From Syntrophomonadaceae bacterium (GTDB lineage: Bacteria; Bacillota; Dethiobacteria; DTU022): 48,945 nt of DNA. Positions 1,814-48,945 of this stretch are shown one piece after another. The notes under the pieces were generated by a model. It saw nothing but the letters and a program-made list of their open reading frames with translations. It was not told the origin of the DNA and did no database searches. A program made the position numbers and the translations under genes. The stretch spans positions 1-48,945 of the forward strand of contig PWYU01000011.1 in NCBI GenBank assembly GCA_003567725.1. The letters are read 5' to 3'. How positions within the stretch are numbered: position 1 is the stretch's first letter; each line of letters begins with the position of its first letter.

Positions 1814-2094
1814 TCCAGTGCTCCTTTCTCCAAATACTTGGCTACACCAATAGTGGTAATAAAGCCCATTAAGGCATAAACCATAGCAATATCGAGAAAA
1901 TAAACCTGCTCATAGATTCGAGCAATTAATGTAATAATAATCAAAGTATAGGTGGTAATGATATTGATTGCTACTACTCGATCCGGAGCTGTCGGGCCGG
2001 CCACAGCCCTGAACATGGAAAGGAAAATCATTAGCATTACCAGGATTGCTCCAATGGCATATAGATAACTAAGAATAAGTTCATAAATCATCAT
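1810..2094 (-). CDS. mrpF: Mrp-type antiporter subunit F (MbhB-like)
   Basis: MrpF/PhaF family, 94 residues, three predicted helices: LYAIGAILVMLMIFLSMFRAV, IITTYTLIIITLIARIY, and AMVYALMGFITTIGVAKYL. The PTAPDRVVAIN segment between helices 1 and 2 is the family signature. The start overlaps the mrpE-like stop (ATG/TAA share a base), which suggests coupled translation. Role: small subunit of the Na+/H+ exchanging membrane complex. Confidence 0.92.
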   Translation of the reverse strand: MMIYELILSYLYAIGAILVMLMIFLSMFRAVAGPTAPDRVVAINIITTYTLIIITLIARIYEQVYFLDIAMVYALMGFITTIGVAKYLEKGALD

Positions 2095-2585
2095 TAATCA
2101 CGCTCCATATGCTTTAGCCTGCTTATGGGGTGCCACTCAGTGATAGCTTCGCCGCTTTCTATTGTTAAAGCATGAACCAGAAAGTCTTTTTCGTCTGCTA
2201 GAACTGTTAAAGTTCCCGGGCAAAGAGTAATAGAATTGCCAAGAAGCACCCGGCTGGCCATGCTTTCGATTTCCACTCGCATTGAAACCATATTAGGGAC
2301 AACCGGCATCTTTGGATGCAAAACAATATAGGCAACCTGAAAATTAGCAATAAAAATGTCCCTGAGCAGTTTTAAAAAGTAGCCTATTAACCATAAAACA
2401 TTTTTTATGGTTACCGGCGGCCTATCTTCAGCAGTGATAATCAGATTACGGTTAAAAAATACTACAAAAACCGAAGCGGCGAAACCGACCGCCATCTGCG
2501 GCCAGTGAAAATCACCGCTTATTGCCACCCAGAAAACGAACAGGACCAGGGTTATACCAATATAATTTAACCATTTCTTGTCCAC
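2094..2585 (-). CDS. mrpE: Mrp-type antiporter subunit E (MbhA-like)
   Basis: MrpE family, 163 residues. Hydrophobic N-terminus (IGITLVLFVFWVAISGDF), a second helix, an amphipathic linker, then a cytosolic domain with SRVLLGNSITLCPGTLTVLAD, the conserved MrpE core. It is the first gene of the Mrp-like block, starting with GTG at 2585 after a weak GGGTGG. It begins 83 bases after the rnfB stop with no hairpin terminator visible between them, so read-through from the rnf operon is plausible. Confidence 0.9.
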   Translation of the reverse strand: MDKKWLNYIGITLVLFVFWVAISGDFHWPQMAVGFAASVFVVFFNRNLIITAEDRPPVTIKNVLWLIGYFLKLLRDIFIANFQVAYIVLHPKMPVVPNMVSMRVEIESMASRVLLGNSITLCPGTLTVLADEKDFLVHALTIESGEAITEWHPISRLKHMERD

Positions 2586-2668
2586 CGTAATCAGCCACCC
2601 AAATAGTTATTGTTCAAAACTGTGCATAATAATTATTTCACATGCACCACTAATTAAGATTAATCAAC

Positions 2669-3550
2669 TTATTGCCCGCCGCCAGCAGATGATGCAGTTG
2701 AAGCTGGCTGCTGTTCAAGTTCGCTCAGATCTTTAGGTATAACCGTACGCGGAAAAATTGTTCCAGGAGGACAAACCGGCACACATTCGCCACAATCATT
2801 GCATTTGTCAAGATCGATTACAGCCAGTTTATCATCCATGGTGATCGCTTCTTCGGGGCAGGCTTTGACACATGCTTTACAGGCAATGCAACCAACCGAA
2901 CAAGCCTTGGAAACAGTTTTACCTCTCTCATGGGAACGACACAAAACCAGATGACCCTGGTTGGAACGGCGGGGAAGGGTTTCCAGCAAGTCCCGCGGGC
3001 AAGCGGTAACACAAAGCCCACATCCGGTGCAGGCTTCCTGATCAACAACCGGTAATCCATGCGGGCCAATATCGATTGCTTCAAAAGGACAGGCCCGAAC
3101 ACAATTGCCAAGCCCCAGACAACCGTAACCACAGGCTTTAAAGCCTCCATTCATTCTTCCGGCAACAGCGCAATCCTCTACACCTTCGTAGACAAATAAG
3201 TCAGCTGCTTTCTCATTATCGCCGATACAAAAAACAGTTGCTACAAGCGGTTCTGTTTCCGCAATTTCTAATCCAAGCTCTTTAGCCAGGGCATTAGCGG
3301 TGTTAGTTCCACCGGGGATACATCCGGCCGGATCAGTTTCACCCCTGGTTACAGCTTCGGCAAATTGCGCGCAACCGGCATACCCGCAAGCGCCGCAGTT
3401 TGCTCCGGGTAGAACCTCTTTTACTTTCTCTACCCGGGGATCAACCTTAACAGCAAATACCCTGGCCGCCATGGATAGAAGAAGCCCAAAAAGCAGGCCA
3501 ATTAACCCCAGGGCTACTATTGCATTTATTATTTGCACAACCAAATTCAC
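2669..3550 (-). CDS. rnfB: Rnf complex subunit B (multi-[4Fe-4S] ferredoxin-like)
   Basis: 293-residue electron-entry subunit of the ion-pumping ferredoxin:NAD+ oxidoreductase. Residues 1-30 form one membrane helix. The Fe-S domain follows with NCGACGYAGCAQFA, then four ferredoxin-type Cys motifs: the clusters around CGYGCLGLGNCVRACP, CTGCGLCVTACP, CIACKACVKACP and CNDCGECVPVCP. The long, cluster-rich form resembles the Clostridia-type RnfB rather than the shorter proteobacterial one. It is the last rnf gene in the order C-D-G-E-A-B. The tail after the last cluster is Ser/Gly rich. Confidence 0.96.
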   Translation of the reverse strand: MNLVVQIINAIVALGLIGLLFGLLLSMAARVFAVKVDPRVEKVKEVLPGANCGACGYAGCAQFAEAVTRGETDPAGCIPGGTNTANALAKELGLEIAETEPLVATVFCIGDNEKAADLFVYEGVEDCAVAGRMNGGFKACGYGCLGLGNCVRACPFEAIDIGPHGLPVVDQEACTGCGLCVTACPRDLLETLPRRSNQGHLVLCRSHERGKTVSKACSVGCIACKACVKACPEEAITMDDKLAVIDLDKCNDCGECVPVCPPGTIFPRTVIPKDLSELEQQPASTASSAGGGQ

Positions 3551-44842: not shown

Positions 44843-46084
44843 TCAGAAACTCCACCGCGGGCCTTCGCGCGTATCTTCTACCGATACACCGGCATTCTGC
44901 AAAAGAGTGCGAATTTGATCAGCCTCACTCCACCTTTTTTCCCGGCGGCACTGTTCTCTGAGTTCAACCAGGCCTTTAACCAGTAATTCGAACCTGCGGG
45001 GCATTTCTACAGCCTGGTTAATACCGGTACCGGCAAGGACGATCATCTCCCTGAAAATCTCCCGCCCCTGGGATATAAATTCCGGGTTTTCCAGGTCAAG
45101 CTGAGCCTGCCACAGCAGCCCATCTGCCTCCAGTAACCGGGTGATCATAGCGGCCGGATCATTTTGATCAAGGGCCCGCTGGAATGCTTTTTCTATACCA
45201 TGCATCCGGCTCCAAAAAGCTGAATCCCGGCTTATGGCATCATCTGAAGAGGGCTCTATGGCAATTTCCGGGCCGGTTTTTTGATCATCGGCCTCAAAAT
45301 TACCAGTAAGCTGCTTAAAGTTGAGCTCTTCCCCCCTGTTAAAAACCTGTTCGGTTCCGCTGCGCCGGATCGTAACCCGGCCAATACCCGCCACGTAAGC
45401 CCGGCTGGAGGTAAAATCAATAATACAGGCCGTGTGTTCGTCAATACCAAGAATAGTGGTCCCAGCCGGCAGCTGTTCTTCCAGGGTGCGAAAACGCTTT
45501 TCTCCCATGTAACAGAAACGGGTATCATGGTTACCACCTTCGGCATTGTTCCAGTGAGGAATTACAACCAGTTTCAAACCCGTGTTGCCCAGTATATTCA
45601 ACCCTTCCACCCAGTGCAGCGGTTCCCCAACCTTGTAAATCTCGTAAACAGGCAGAGTATGCGTACCGGCAGTAAGGGCGGCGGCGCTGGCCACCACCAG
45701 GCAACCTCCCCTGGCAACCATGGCGCTTAACAGGGCGGGAACAGGCGTTTTCTTCAACTGGCGTACAGCGTAAGTAGGGCTTCCGGGCCCCAGCAGCACA
45801 AAACCGGCTTCCCCCAGGAGCTGATAAGTATGTTCAGTGTCAGCATCAGGTAAAGTATCCGCTTCTTTAAAAGAAGCAACCTCCATCCTTTGCAAGACCT
45901 GGCGCTCAAAAAAATCCACTGCCCGGTGGGCTATCAAATCAACATTTTCCTGGAATCCTGCAGGAGTATCCAAAAAAAGCACTTTCTCTTCCGGCTTTAT
46001 CCCGGTTAGAAGCTTTTTATGGGTTTCCACCATGGTTCCGGAAAGTTCACCGGATCCGATAAGGGCTATAGTGCCACGAATCAT
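44843..46084 (-). CDS. S51/cyanophycinase-like protein fused to a CysRS-like C-terminal domain
   Basis: 413 residues. Residues 1-230 look like a peptidase E/cyanophycinase (type 1 glutamine amidotransferase-like) fold: TIALIGSGELSGTMVETHKK, LFLDTPAGFQENVD, FVLLGPGSPTYAVRQLK, and GGCLVVASAAALTAGTHTLP, where the Ser in ASAAA stands at the nucleophile elbow (usual GxSAG). IDEHTACIID follows. The C-terminal 130 residues resemble the DALR and tail region of cysteinyl-tRNA synthetase, ending with RRFELLVKGLVELREQCRRE then KRWSEADQIRTLLQNAG and VEDTREGPRW. No synthetase catalytic motifs are present. ATG 46084 is chosen (GGATGG six bases upstream). Function unknown; hydrolase or tRNA/cysteine-related roles are possible. 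Confidence 0.75.
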   Translation of the reverse strand: MIRGTIALIGSGELSGTMVETHKKLLTGIKPEEKVLFLDTPAGFQENVDLIAHRAVDFFERQVLQRMEVASFKEADTLPDADTEHTYQLLGEAGFVLLGPGSPTYAVRQLKKTPVPALLSAMVARGGCLVVASAAALTAGTHTLPVYEIYKVGEPLHWVEGLNILGNTGLKLVVIPHWNNAEGGNHDTRFCYMGEKRFRTLEEQLPAGTTILGIDEHTACIIDFTSSRAYVAGIGRVTIRRSGTEQVFNRGEELNFKQLTGNFEADDQKTGPEIAIEPSSDDAISRDSAFWSRMHGIEKAFQRALDQNDPAAMITRLLEADGLLWQAQLDLENPEFISQGREIFREMIVLAGTGINQAVEMPRRFELLVKGLVELREQCRREKRWSEADQIRTLLQNAGVSVEDTREGPRWSF

Positions 46085-46169
46085 ATAAACCATCCATTTC
46101 TGTTTGTCGATCGTAACTACTCAGGCATAGCCCGCTACGATGATGGCTATAGTGCCACGAATCATATAA
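46064..46169. repeat. 25-bp direct duplication of the gene's 5' end
   Basis: The 25 bases at 46064-46088 (start of the S51-like gene) recur exactly at 46145-46169, 81 bases further upstream of that gene. The second copy runs straight into repeat A copy 3. It looks like a duplication tied to insertion or slippage. Confidence 0.85.
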
Positions 46170-46247
46170 GCGGCGCCATGGGGACGGTTCGAGCGTCCCG
46201 CAGCGCAGCGCAGGCCGAATGAAAGACGATGGAACCGTCCCCGTGGC
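46165..46247. repeat. Dispersed repeat family A, copy 3 (best-preserved hairpin)
   Basis: CCATGGGGACGGTTC and GGAACCGTCCCCGTGG give an 11-bp perfect stem GGGGACGGTTC/GAACCGTCCCC; outside them CATATAAGC and GCTTATAAATG are also nearly inverted. The central part is CAGCGCAGCGCAGG. It has the character of a REP/BIME-like palindromic element. No REP-associated transposase is in the window. Confidence 0.75.
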
Positions 46248-46401: not shown

Positions 46402-47288
46402 TCAGGAAATTACTTCTCTTATGATTAAATCAAGGGTCTGAGAGAGGTCAATTTCATGAGGCTGCGCCAGAGGTTTAAAGTTTTTCCCATTGTCATAAAG
46501 CACTCTAACAACAGGTCGCAAAGTAAAACCGGGATTGTTAGCAATTACCAGCCCGCTTGTATCATTACTTAAAAGGACATGGCTGCCTATCGGGTAGGCT
46601 GCAATAACAGACAGGAAATGCTGCAGAATTGTAGCATCAAACAGCTCTTCTCCGCTTGACATAAGCATTTCCACAACTTCATGGGGTTGATAAGCTTTCC
46701 GGTGTGGCCTATCTGATGTCATGGCATCGTAAACATCGGCAATACCGCATAATTGAGCCAGGGTGTTAATATTCTTGCCTGAAAGTCCTTTTGGATAGCC
46801 CTGGCCCTGGAGCCGCTCATGGTGCTGTAAAACCACAACTCCGGCACGCGCATCAAAAATATTAGTGGTACGAAAGATTTCAAAACCCTGCAGCGGATGC
46901 CCGCTAATAACTTTAAATTCATCTTCGGTCAGCTCTCCCGGTTTATTAATCAATTTATCTGGAATGGCTATCATCCCCAGATCATGAAATAGCGAACCGG
47001 CTGCTAACCATCTCAATTCCTTGGGTTTAAATTTCATTTTCTTGGCAGTCAGGGTTGCCAAAACCGCACAATTAACGCTGTGCGCAAACAGGTAATCATC
47101 TTTAGATCTGATATCTACCAGTTGTACTATAGCATCATTACTGTCGAGCAATTCATCTATAATTTTATTAACGGTATTAAGCAGATCCCTATCCTGAACA
47201 TTAATACTTTTTTTTATTTTTCCTCCGGCACCTTCACTCTGAAGGTCTCTGGTAATATCCCTGATTATTAAGCGGGCTTCATAGCGGG
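46402..47288 (-). pseudogene. HD-GYP domain protein, C-terminal part of a frameshifted gene
   Basis: This frame holds the HD-GYP catalytic domain of a c-di-GMP phosphodiesterase-like protein: FAHSVNCAVLATL, SLFHDLGMIAIPDKLI (HD), GHPLQGFEIF, LQHHERLQGQGYPKGLSG (HHE and GYP) and GIADVYDAMTSDRPHRKA. The position before GxGYP is Gln where Asp is usual. The frame continues upstream of its first ATG (47151) through TRYEARLIIRDITRDLQSEG and NTVNKIIDELLDSNDAI, up to the A7 run at 47289-47295, where it joins the other fragment. Removing one A restores one gene of 364 residues (46402-47497). Confidence 0.88.
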
Positions 47289-47497
47289 TTTTTTTCGGTT
47301 ATAGGATCATCAATCTTTATATCCGAAATCCTTTCATCCCGGACATATAGGTATTCTATTCCCGCCTGCTGCAAATAATCCAGGTAACGAGGTTTAATTT
47401 TAATCTCAGCTCTGAGCAAAATTTGCCCTGTATTACTAAAAATATCTTTGGCCAGAACCATGCCCGTTTCTACCTGCTCTATGGAAATTTTACGCAC
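47279..47497 (-). pseudogene. HD-GYP protein, N-terminal part of the frameshifted gene
   Basis: 72 residues: MRKISIEQVETGMVLAKDIF then SNTGQILLRAEIKIKPRYLD and YLQQAGIEYLYVRDE, the usual N-terminal domain of clostridial HD-GYP proteins. It ends at TGA soon after a run of seven A (47295-47289 on the minus strand). With six A the frame would pass into the catalytic domain. This may be a true mutation, a phase-variable tract or a sequencing error. It is the first gene behind the c-di-GMP riboswitch. Confidence 0.85.
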
Positions 47498-47540
47498 CTG
47501 CTTACCTTCTTCCCTGGTTTAGATTAAAAGCCTCAATAAT

Positions 47541-47575
47541 AATAAAACCCCATCTGCGCATTAAAGCAGATGAGG
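47541..47575 (-). terminator. Riboswitch expression-platform terminator
   Basis: CCTCATCTGC pairs with GCAGATGGGG (one G-U) around an eight-base loop and is followed by TTTTATTATT on the minus strand. It lies between the riboswitch aptamer and the HD-GYP start, 44 bases before the ATG. Confidence 0.85.
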
Positions 47576-47597
47576 TTAAATTCTCCGTCATACTTTA

Positions 47598-47690
47598 ACT
47601 GGCAGCTGGCTGGCATTTCCCAAAATGAGCTTTAGCCCCTTTAGCTTTGCGTCGCCATTTTTCAACGGCTTTGCCTTTGCAGTTTTTGTT
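47598..47690 (-). ncRNA. Cyclic di-GMP-I (GEMM) riboswitch
   Basis: Read on the minus strand, the region contains the conserved GEMM elements in order: AAAGGCAAAGCCGTTGAAAA, then ATGGCGACGCAAAGCTAAAG and GGGCTAAAG, then AAATGCCAGCCAGCTGCC. GACGCAAAGC and the GCCAGC-TGCC tetraloop-receptor-like part are the diagnostic blocks of c-di-GMP-I aptamers. Upstream is a promoter whose start falls just before the aptamer; downstream are a terminator and an HD-GYP gene. It would sense c-di-GMP and control a c-di-GMP-degrading-type protein. Confidence 0.9.
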
Positions 47691-47697
47691 GTTATTT

Positions 47698-47726
47698 ATT
47701 GAATCAAAAGCCTGCATAAATGTCAA
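47698..47726 (-). promoter_or_regulatory. Promoter for the riboswitch/HD-GYP transcript
   Basis: Minus strand TTGACA (47726-47721), 17-base spacer, TTCAAT (47703-47698). Transcription would begin near 47691, at the 5' edge of the aptamer. Confidence 0.7.
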
Positions 47727-47770: not shown

Positions 47771-47850
47771 ACACTGTGTATCAAGTTATCAAGTTATTTC
47801 AAATAACCCAACGCTGTGTATCAATTTGTCATGTATCAGGTTGTCAAGTT
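47771..47850. repeat. Repeat family C, copy 1 (plus degenerate half)
   Basis: ACACTGTGTATCAAGTTATC followed by AAGTTATT, a short loop and AATAACCCAA, then CTGTGTATCAA and degenerate TATCA-GTT motifs. GTTATTTCAAATAAC is a near-perfect hairpin. Family members recur at 48497 and 48872-48945. It lies directly after the stop of the toxin remnant. Confidence 0.75.
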
Positions 47851-47851
47851 G

Positions 47852-48106
47852 TTAGTAAATGTCTCTTCTGTGTTTAACGTGTGTCACCAAATAAGTTTTA
47901 CGAGCATGATCGGCTTGGAACCTTACCCGCCAGTCTCCTACCCTTAAGCGATAATCTCCAAGTTTTCCTTTTAGTTTTTTTATGTCAGCAGCTTCAGGCG
48001 TTTCAAGCATATTGTTAATAGATTCCCATATTCGTTTTCATATATTTATAACTAACTTTTTCATGTCTTTTATGGCCCGGATATCAAACTGAACCTCCCA
48101 CTTCAT
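47852..48106 (-). pseudogene. RelE/ParE-type toxin with in-frame stop
   Basis: 84-codon frame beginning one base inside the antitoxin stop. It translates as MKWEVQFDIRAIKDMKKLVI, N-I-stop-K-R-I-W, then ADIKKLKGKLGDYRLRVGDW, RVRFQADHARKTYLVTHVKH and RRDIY. The LKGKLGDYRLRVGDWRVRF and VKHRRDIY stretches are typical RelE-family toxin sequence. Codon 23 is TGA where a sense codon such as CGA is expected, so the full toxin is not made unless the stop is suppressed. Confidence 0.82.
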
Positions 48107-48354
48107 TATCCAAATAATTCCTTTTCGGCTTCATGTTTTGGAATGCTCTTTCCATCAAGGTGTTCAGACCATGCATTTTTTGCTTCAAGGTTTTCTTTTT
48201 CAGAAGTAGTTTCATCGTCGTAAGGTGCTTTTTTTAAAGCATAGGCCACAGGATCATAGATGGCTAAAAATTCTAAAAACCGTTTAGCTGTTTCAATTTC
48301 ATCGTCTGGCAATGTATCAAGCAGTTGATGAAGTTCTTTTCTCTTAGCGTTCAT
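48106..48354 (-). CDS. RelB-type antitoxin
   Basis: 82 residues, acidic. Helical start KRKELHQLLDTLPDDEIETA followed by KRFLEFL, then DPVAYALKKAPYDDET and KNAWSEHLDGKSIPKHEAEK, a common layout for antitoxins paired with RelE/ParE toxins. GAGGAGG lies eight bases before the ATG. Its stop overlaps the toxin start (TAATG). With the toxin broken, it may be a relic or neutralise a toxin elsewhere. Confidence 0.82.
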   Translation of the reverse strand: MNAKRKELHQLLDTLPDDEIETAKRFLEFLAIYDPVAYALKKAPYDDETTSEKENLEAKNAWSEHLDGKSIPKHEAEKELFG

Positions 48355-48513: not shown

Positions 48514-48870
48514 CAGCGGCAATCTTCGGGTTCTATCGACTCCGAGATGAAAGCTGGAGCTGTGAGGAGTGCCGGATTACCGAAATTACCAAGGAAGATG
48601 GCAGCAAAGAGCTCCAGTATCACGAGGATATAGTTGGTGCTTGCTATGTTGGGCGGCATCCCAACCTGGTGCTTGGCTTAGAGCGGGTTGGCCGTGGTGA
48701 AGGTGAGATCACCGCAACCATGAGGCTTTTAAAAGAGTTTTACCGGCGGCACAATCGCTACACTGATATCATTACCTTAGATTCACTGTATGCTAAAGCG
48801 CCGATCATCAATGAAATCATTGACCAAAACATGATCGCCGTAATTCGAGTCAAACAGCAGCACCCAATAT
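48514..48870 (+). pseudogene. Internal fragment of a DDE transposase
   Basis: Open frame without a proper start: FGFYRLRDESWSCEECRITE, GACYVGRHPNLVLGLERVGR, MRLLKEFYRRHNRYTDIITL then DSLYAKAPIINEIIDQN, followed by MIAVIRVKQQ. The ITLDSLYAKAP stretch followed by a basic beta strand is typical of the catalytic core of IS4-like transposases. Both ends stop at copies of repeat C and no terminal repeats are seen, so it is a dead remnant. The exact IS family is not certain. Confidence 0.75.
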
Positions 48871-48871
48871 C

Positions 48872-48945
48872 CTGTGTATCAAGTTATCAAGTTATTGTGC
48901 ATCGATGGAATAACCCAAAAGTATCTAACACTGTGTATCAAGTTA
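48872..48945. repeat. Repeat family C, copies at the right edge
   Basis: CTGTGTATCAAGTTATCAAG followed by TTATT, an 18-base spacer-like stretch and AATAACCCAA, then AACACTGTGTATCAAGTTA reaching the window end. The layout parallels copy 1. The transposase frame reads through it but no longer matches transposase sequence. Confidence 0.7.

Follow-up and report, generated by a model that had tools for sequence, protein, structure and literature searches.

The window, i.e. the whole stretch of 48,945 nucleotides analysed here, carries on its reverse strand a c-di-GMP-I riboswitch that precedes a gene coding for an HD-GYP protein. Taken as a whole, the reading that we favour, and that we consider fairly likely, is that this RNA is a transcription-attenuation riboswitch of the OFF type controlling an HD-GYP phosphodiesterase gene, that RNA and gene would form a double-negative loop if the enzyme is active, and that this loop is probably broken in the present assembly.

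The aptamer, the encoded protein and their conservation

The original prediction placed a promoter, an aptamer, a terminator and an HD-GYP gene in this order between positions 46402 and 47726. All four elements were located, but the gene is not intact, as it contains a frameshift. The features of the locus are the following:

47698..47726 (-), promoter, as read from the sequence: -35 TTGACA (47726-47721), 17-nt spacer, extended -10 TG (47706-47705), N, TTCAAT (47703-47698)
47598..47685 (-), c-di-GMP-I (GEMM-I) aptamer with a GAAA-type loop, RF01051 match
47678..47684 (-), 5′ strand of P1, AACUGCA; predicted 7-bp P1 with one bulge, -3.9 kcal/mol
47597..47604 (-), predicted 3′ strand of P1, UGCCAGUU, which doubles as a strand of the competing (antiterminator) fold
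47546..47577 (-), intrinsic terminator hairpin AACCTCATCTGC-TTTAATGC-GCAGATGGGGTT, 12 pairs, T-rich tail TTATTATTAT
47505..47510 (-), ribosome binding site AGAAGG, from sequence
47279..47497 (-), ORF piece 1, GTG start at 47497, 72 codons, TGA at 47281-47279: N-terminal domain of the HD-GYP protein
47289..47295 (-), A7 homopolymer, the frameshift site; A6 in orthologs L019 and L020 (DNA alignment)
46402..47289 (-), ORF piece 2, 295 codons in another frame: HD-GYP domain (Pfam HD_5) with HDLGM and HHERLQGQGYP

The promoter was not listed by a consensus scan that requires an A at position 2 of the -10 element; the heptamer CTTGACA is unchanged in the four orthologous leaders compared. The identity of the aptamer is beyond doubt: a covariance-model search aligned it over the full length of RF01051 (1-87/87) with 73.2 bits, for a gathering score of 35, and an E-value of 1.4e-12, bearing out the c-di-GMP-I (GEMM-I) class proposed originally. 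The equivalents of the ligand-contacting bases G20 and A47 (Vc2 numbering; PMC9049102, PMC11218506) are present, with a 27-nt spacing as in Bc1; the equivalent of C92 is also present, an assignment made by eye from the alignment and less certain. The ligand of the window aptamer would thus be c-di-GMP, judging from these bases.

The genome (2.39 Mb, 127 contigs) contains 11 RF01051 matches, the window aptamer included. It also yields 24 GGDEF matches, so that it should be able to make the ligand, and a single, partial EAL match, suggesting that HD-GYP proteins are likely to be its main phosphodiesterases. The c-di-GMP-II riboswitch gave no match in the genome, in a search that was equally silent in all control genomes and hence does not imply absence.

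The assignment of the gene to the HD-GYP family, also part of the original prediction, is confirmed by the Pfam HD_5 match of ORF piece 2 (E 1.6e-27); the N-terminal domain encoded by ORF piece 1 matched no Pfam family. A 19-sequence alignment shows no variation at the metal-ligand residues (H139, H171, D172, H200, H225, H226 and D254) or in the GYP motif, and the HHExxxGxGYP motif is present as HHERLQGQGYP. The best solved relative is the HD-GYP phosphodiesterase PmGH (PDB 4mcw), which resembles the window protein over the HD-GYP domain (E 2.2e-27) and whose seven metal-ligand positions (H, HD, H, HH and D) are all kept. Unlike PmGH, however, the clade has a tyrosine in place of the glutamate located four residues before the first histidine and a methionine in place of the HDxGK lysine, and the N-terminal domain of the window protein is different. 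The HDLGM form is found in the window protein and its orthologs, M, L or N occupy the lysine position in most of the wider clade, and the lysine itself is found in the outer clade; this substitution may affect activity. Altogether, phosphodiesterase activity of the encoded enzyme is plausible in view of its residues.

Orthologs displaying 77% (G002) and 64% (G018) identity were found by a protein search of relatives, and a wider search added a further one (G055, L078/L084; 69% identity to L077, which is the same ortholog as L019, taken from the GTDB record). An RF01051 aptamer lies upstream of each. The four riboswitch-bearing proteins, all from Syntrophomonadaceae, form a single clade (100/100), so that the presence of the riboswitch maps as one change on the tree, and the fact that riboswitch and gene stay together in four orthologs argues for a real regulatory link. 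In the loci scanned, RF01051 had no match at paralogs of about 60% identity or less, one of which belongs to the same genome (G000:C56:17064-18140). The far relative L037 carries an aptamer of its own, which cmscan called as an RF03167 variant. The relatives' records are metagenome genomes named Syntrophomonadaceae, whose isolate names suggest sediments and which presumably belong to soda-lake sets.

The HD-GYP genes of the window and of L077 share an adjoining gene (44843-46093 in the window); in L078 and L079, a DHH-family gene or homolog is found near the HD-GYP gene instead. Note that this adjoining gene, on the reverse strand, codes for a 416-aa protein that ends, at its C-terminus, in a part similar to the anticodon-binding end of cysteinyl-tRNA ligase and that shows a faint cyanophycinase-like match. 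This apparently unusual fusion is encoded in L077 as well (1984-3228). Between the two genes (46050-46247), a 39-nt direct repeat (46050 and 46131, 87%) is followed by a 23-nt inverted repeat (46175-46197/46225-46247), an arrangement that resembles a small mobile or MITE-like element. On the other side lie an 82-aa ORF (48106-48354, reverse strand), which has no Pfam match, resembles a small antitoxin on visual inspection and is followed by apparently disrupted sequence, and the remnant of a DDE transposase (48516-48944; weak ISAs1-type match), interrupted by short CTGTGTATCAAGTTATCAAGTTATT-type repeats that recur at 47774, 47814 and 48872. The last of these regions also takes in an 84-nt stretch at the end of the contig (48861-48944) that recurs without mismatch at the beginning of contig C78 (L015:14-97, G000), so that the two contigs are probably neighbours joined by a repeat. 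On C78, a further riboswitch (240-325) points towards a Wzy_C (O-antigen ligase) gene; in this arrangement, it would diverge from the riboswitch of the HD-GYP gene.

Direction of the switch

In the window, the terminator begins 19 nt past the 3′ strand of P1 and lies entirely outside the aptamer. Equivalent hairpins are found in the leaders of L077, L078 and L079, and in none of the four leaders do the aptamer and the terminator have bases in common. Folding predictions in which P1 was either left free or forced, the latter as a stand-in for bound ligand, gave different outcomes for the window RNA shortly before the 3′ arm of the terminator is complete: with 140-144 nt transcribed, the probability of P1 in the unconstrained fold falls to 0 and no terminator pairs are predicted, whereas forcing P1 brings the terminator pairs to 0.45-0.60 at 142-144 nt. 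In the full-length RNA, the terminator is favoured in both ligand states, so that regulation would depend on folding kinetics. As a control, we shuffled the linker and the loop and compared the cost of keeping P1. The penalty obtained with the window sequence was matched in 3 of 100 shuffles, versus 40, 28 and 62 of 100 for L077, L079 and L078, respectively. The layout is conserved, and the shuffle controls back the competing fold in the window only. An antiterminator relying on loop pairing alone was also considered and discarded: shuffling the terminator loop only gave similar pairing energies.

This anatomy is that of Cd1, the riboswitch of the Clostridioides difficile flgB leader, which resembles the window riboswitch in its aptamer class, its coexisting terminator, its transcriptional OFF layout and an antiterminator on the aptamer 3′ strand, as predicted for the window. 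In Cd1, folding of the aptamer does not preclude that of the terminator, and both face competition from an antiterminator that is only transiently stable; the effect there is described as kinetic (PMC9262584). Cd1 differs in that it controls flagellar genes rather than a c-di-GMP phosphodiesterase gene, and its OFF character is proven. Coexistence of aptamer and terminator, combined with a predicted competing fold on the 3′ strand of P1, therefore favours an OFF switch for the window as well, and in C. difficile every one of the seven class I switches that function is OFF (PMC6366702). By analogy, then, the riboswitch is probably an OFF switch, with high c-di-GMP repressing the phosphodiesterase gene.

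Two other readings bear on what the RNA senses and on the sign of its response. If c-di-GMP binding blocked termination, the riboswitch would be an ON switch and high signal would induce its own phosphodiesterase, a homeostatic negative feedback that is physiologically easy to understand; moreover, class I ON switches are known, namely Bc2 of Bacillus thuringiensis (PMC6366702) and the triple-tandem Bc3-5 (PMC4759541). Such a direct transcriptional ON switch, however, needs an aptamer and a terminator that are mutually exclusive, as they are in the pilM ON switch (PMC9262584), and the two elements neither overlap in any of the four leaders nor exclude each other in the predicted folds, which makes an ON switch rather unlikely in our eyes. 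As for the ligand, GEMM-I variants that sense c-AMP-GMP exist (PMC7266159), and the RNA might recognize this other cyclic dinucleotide (cGAMP) instead of c-di-GMP. We give this idea hardly any credence: the selectivity base G20 is a G in all four leaders, and the GGC variant family RF03167 came up only with the distant paralog L037, not with the window aptamer.

In the OFF scheme that we retain, RNA polymerase would initiate at the TTGACA promoter and make the aptamer. Binding of c-di-GMP would hold P1 and leave its 3′ strand inaccessible, the terminator would fold and the gene would remain unread. In the ligand-free RNA, the same strand would pair with the 5′ arm and the loop of the terminator, termination would be delayed and the gene would be transcribed. 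Assuming an active enzyme, high c-di-GMP would silence its destroyer and low c-di-GMP would free it, making a double-negative, switch-like loop.

The interrupted reading frame

The frame opened by the GTG codon at 47497 ends after 72 codons, the HD-GYP domain falls in a second frame (47289-46402), and the N-terminal domain is thereby parted from the HD-GYP domain. The A7 tract at 47295-47289 corresponds to A6 in L019 and L020, both of which are uninterrupted. Three ways of producing the full protein were examined and rejected: (i) the tract forms a slippery heptamer, A_AAA_AAC, in the 0-frame at the shift site, but the HD-GYP frame lies at +1 (or -2), out of reach of the -1 ribosomal frameshifting that it suggests, and a stop follows shortly in the -1 frame; (ii) the HD-GYP frame would be attained by a prfB-like +1 shift at CTA-TGA, but no Shine-Dalgarno-like stimulator is visible and the orthologs lack a stop at this place; (iii) the earliest start codon for an internal restart in ORF piece 2, TTG at 47151, lies beyond the shift site and lacks a clear ribosome binding site. 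With A6 in both aligned orthologs, a simple insertion is indicated rather than a programmed +1 shift.

The interruption raises the question of whether the locus has decayed, i.e. whether the aptamer and the terminator are intact while the gene yields only a 72-residue N-terminal fragment, leaving a riboswitch without functional output in this strain and the function to the intact C56 paralog and about 20 other HD-GYP regions. The arguments seem to us evenly balanced. The A7 tract, the stop after 72 codons and the existence of this intact paralog (58% identity) speak for decay. Conversely, the remaining 295 codons contain no second lesion, and in this downstream part the differences from L077 are distributed 43/33/147 among the codon positions (chi-square p about 5e-24 against equal thirds), with a dN of 0.14 and a dS of 1.70, so that any gene loss must be very recent. 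Besides, an assembly or strain-mixture error could also be the source of the seventh A. The lesion may hence be a recent mutation, a sequence error or a variant below fixation in the population, and whichever holds, the one-base insertion probably opens the loop in the present assembly. Decay in this strain is compatible with the OFF riboswitch that we favour, which describes the system as it evolved.

Possible feedback on c-di-GMP turnover

The original prediction saw in this locus a direct feedback design. The riboswitch class and the gene family that it named stand, and the pair is conserved in four orthologs; the frameshift may nevertheless open the loop, and the anatomy of the intact genes points to mutual repression, that is positive feedback, rather than to a self-limiting loop. 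In a toy model with a Hill coefficient of 1, the gain of the c-di-GMP response to synthesis was about 1.2-1.5 for a repressing riboswitch versus 0.6-0.7 for an inducing one. Bistability appeared only at Hill coefficients of at least 2, values that a single aptamer alone would not be expected to provide. A more elaborate scheme can be imagined, in which an RNA-based bistable switch specific to the clade would combine the OFF riboswitch on the HD-GYP phosphodiesterase, another riboswitch before a diguanylate cyclase gene and A6/A7 slippage that reversibly disconnects the phosphodiesterase (phase variation); we think it very unlikely.

A second turnover gene does lie behind the same RNA class in this genome: on contig C28, a c-di-GMP-I riboswitch is found 173 nt upstream of a gene coding for a 763-aa dCache-HAMP-PAS-GGDEF protein, a probable diguanylate cyclase (L017:2946-5501; G000:C28:23945-26500), with no obvious terminator in between. 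Elsewhere, two tandem c-di-GMP-I aptamer pairs (L012:662-913 and L014:3561-3829) each precede one gene for a putative exported or surface protein.

This kind of system is already known; the present locus adds a member to it, with a probable sign and a broken copy that the original prediction did not include. According to one review, many of the genes associated with GEMM riboswitches have to do with making or degrading c-di-GMP (PMC7266159, summarising Sudarsan 2008), an arrangement which, as in the window, places an RNA sensor of c-di-GMP before a gene that makes or destroys it; another describes turnover genes as rare GEMM targets (PMC6366702). The literature that we searched yielded no specific published case of an HD-GYP gene under a GEMM riboswitch. 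Among the best-scoring riboswitch loci of the relatives, 2 of 29 precede HD-GYP genes and most identifiable targets are pilus, secretion or surface proteins, a tally read by eye from one locus per genome and biased to high scores. A comparable logic is found in the trigger phosphodiesterases of Escherichia coli, where c-di-GMP lowers the expression of PdeL and inhibits the action of PdeR, giving a double-negative loop with possible bistability (PMC5052742); there, however, the sensor is the EAL protein itself, whereas the window combines an RNA sensor with an HD-GYP enzyme. In C. difficile, raised c-di-GMP cut the transcription of the phosphodiesterase gene CD630_07570 5.1-fold (PMC6200980).

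For annotation, the lesson is that homeostasis should not be assumed where a riboswitch accompanies a turnover gene, and that the gene should be checked for an open frame. If the riboswitch is OFF in the intact orthologs, a single RNA would close a positive loop on c-di-GMP turnover, and loops of this kind can make the decision between motility and surface attachment sharper, or lock it.
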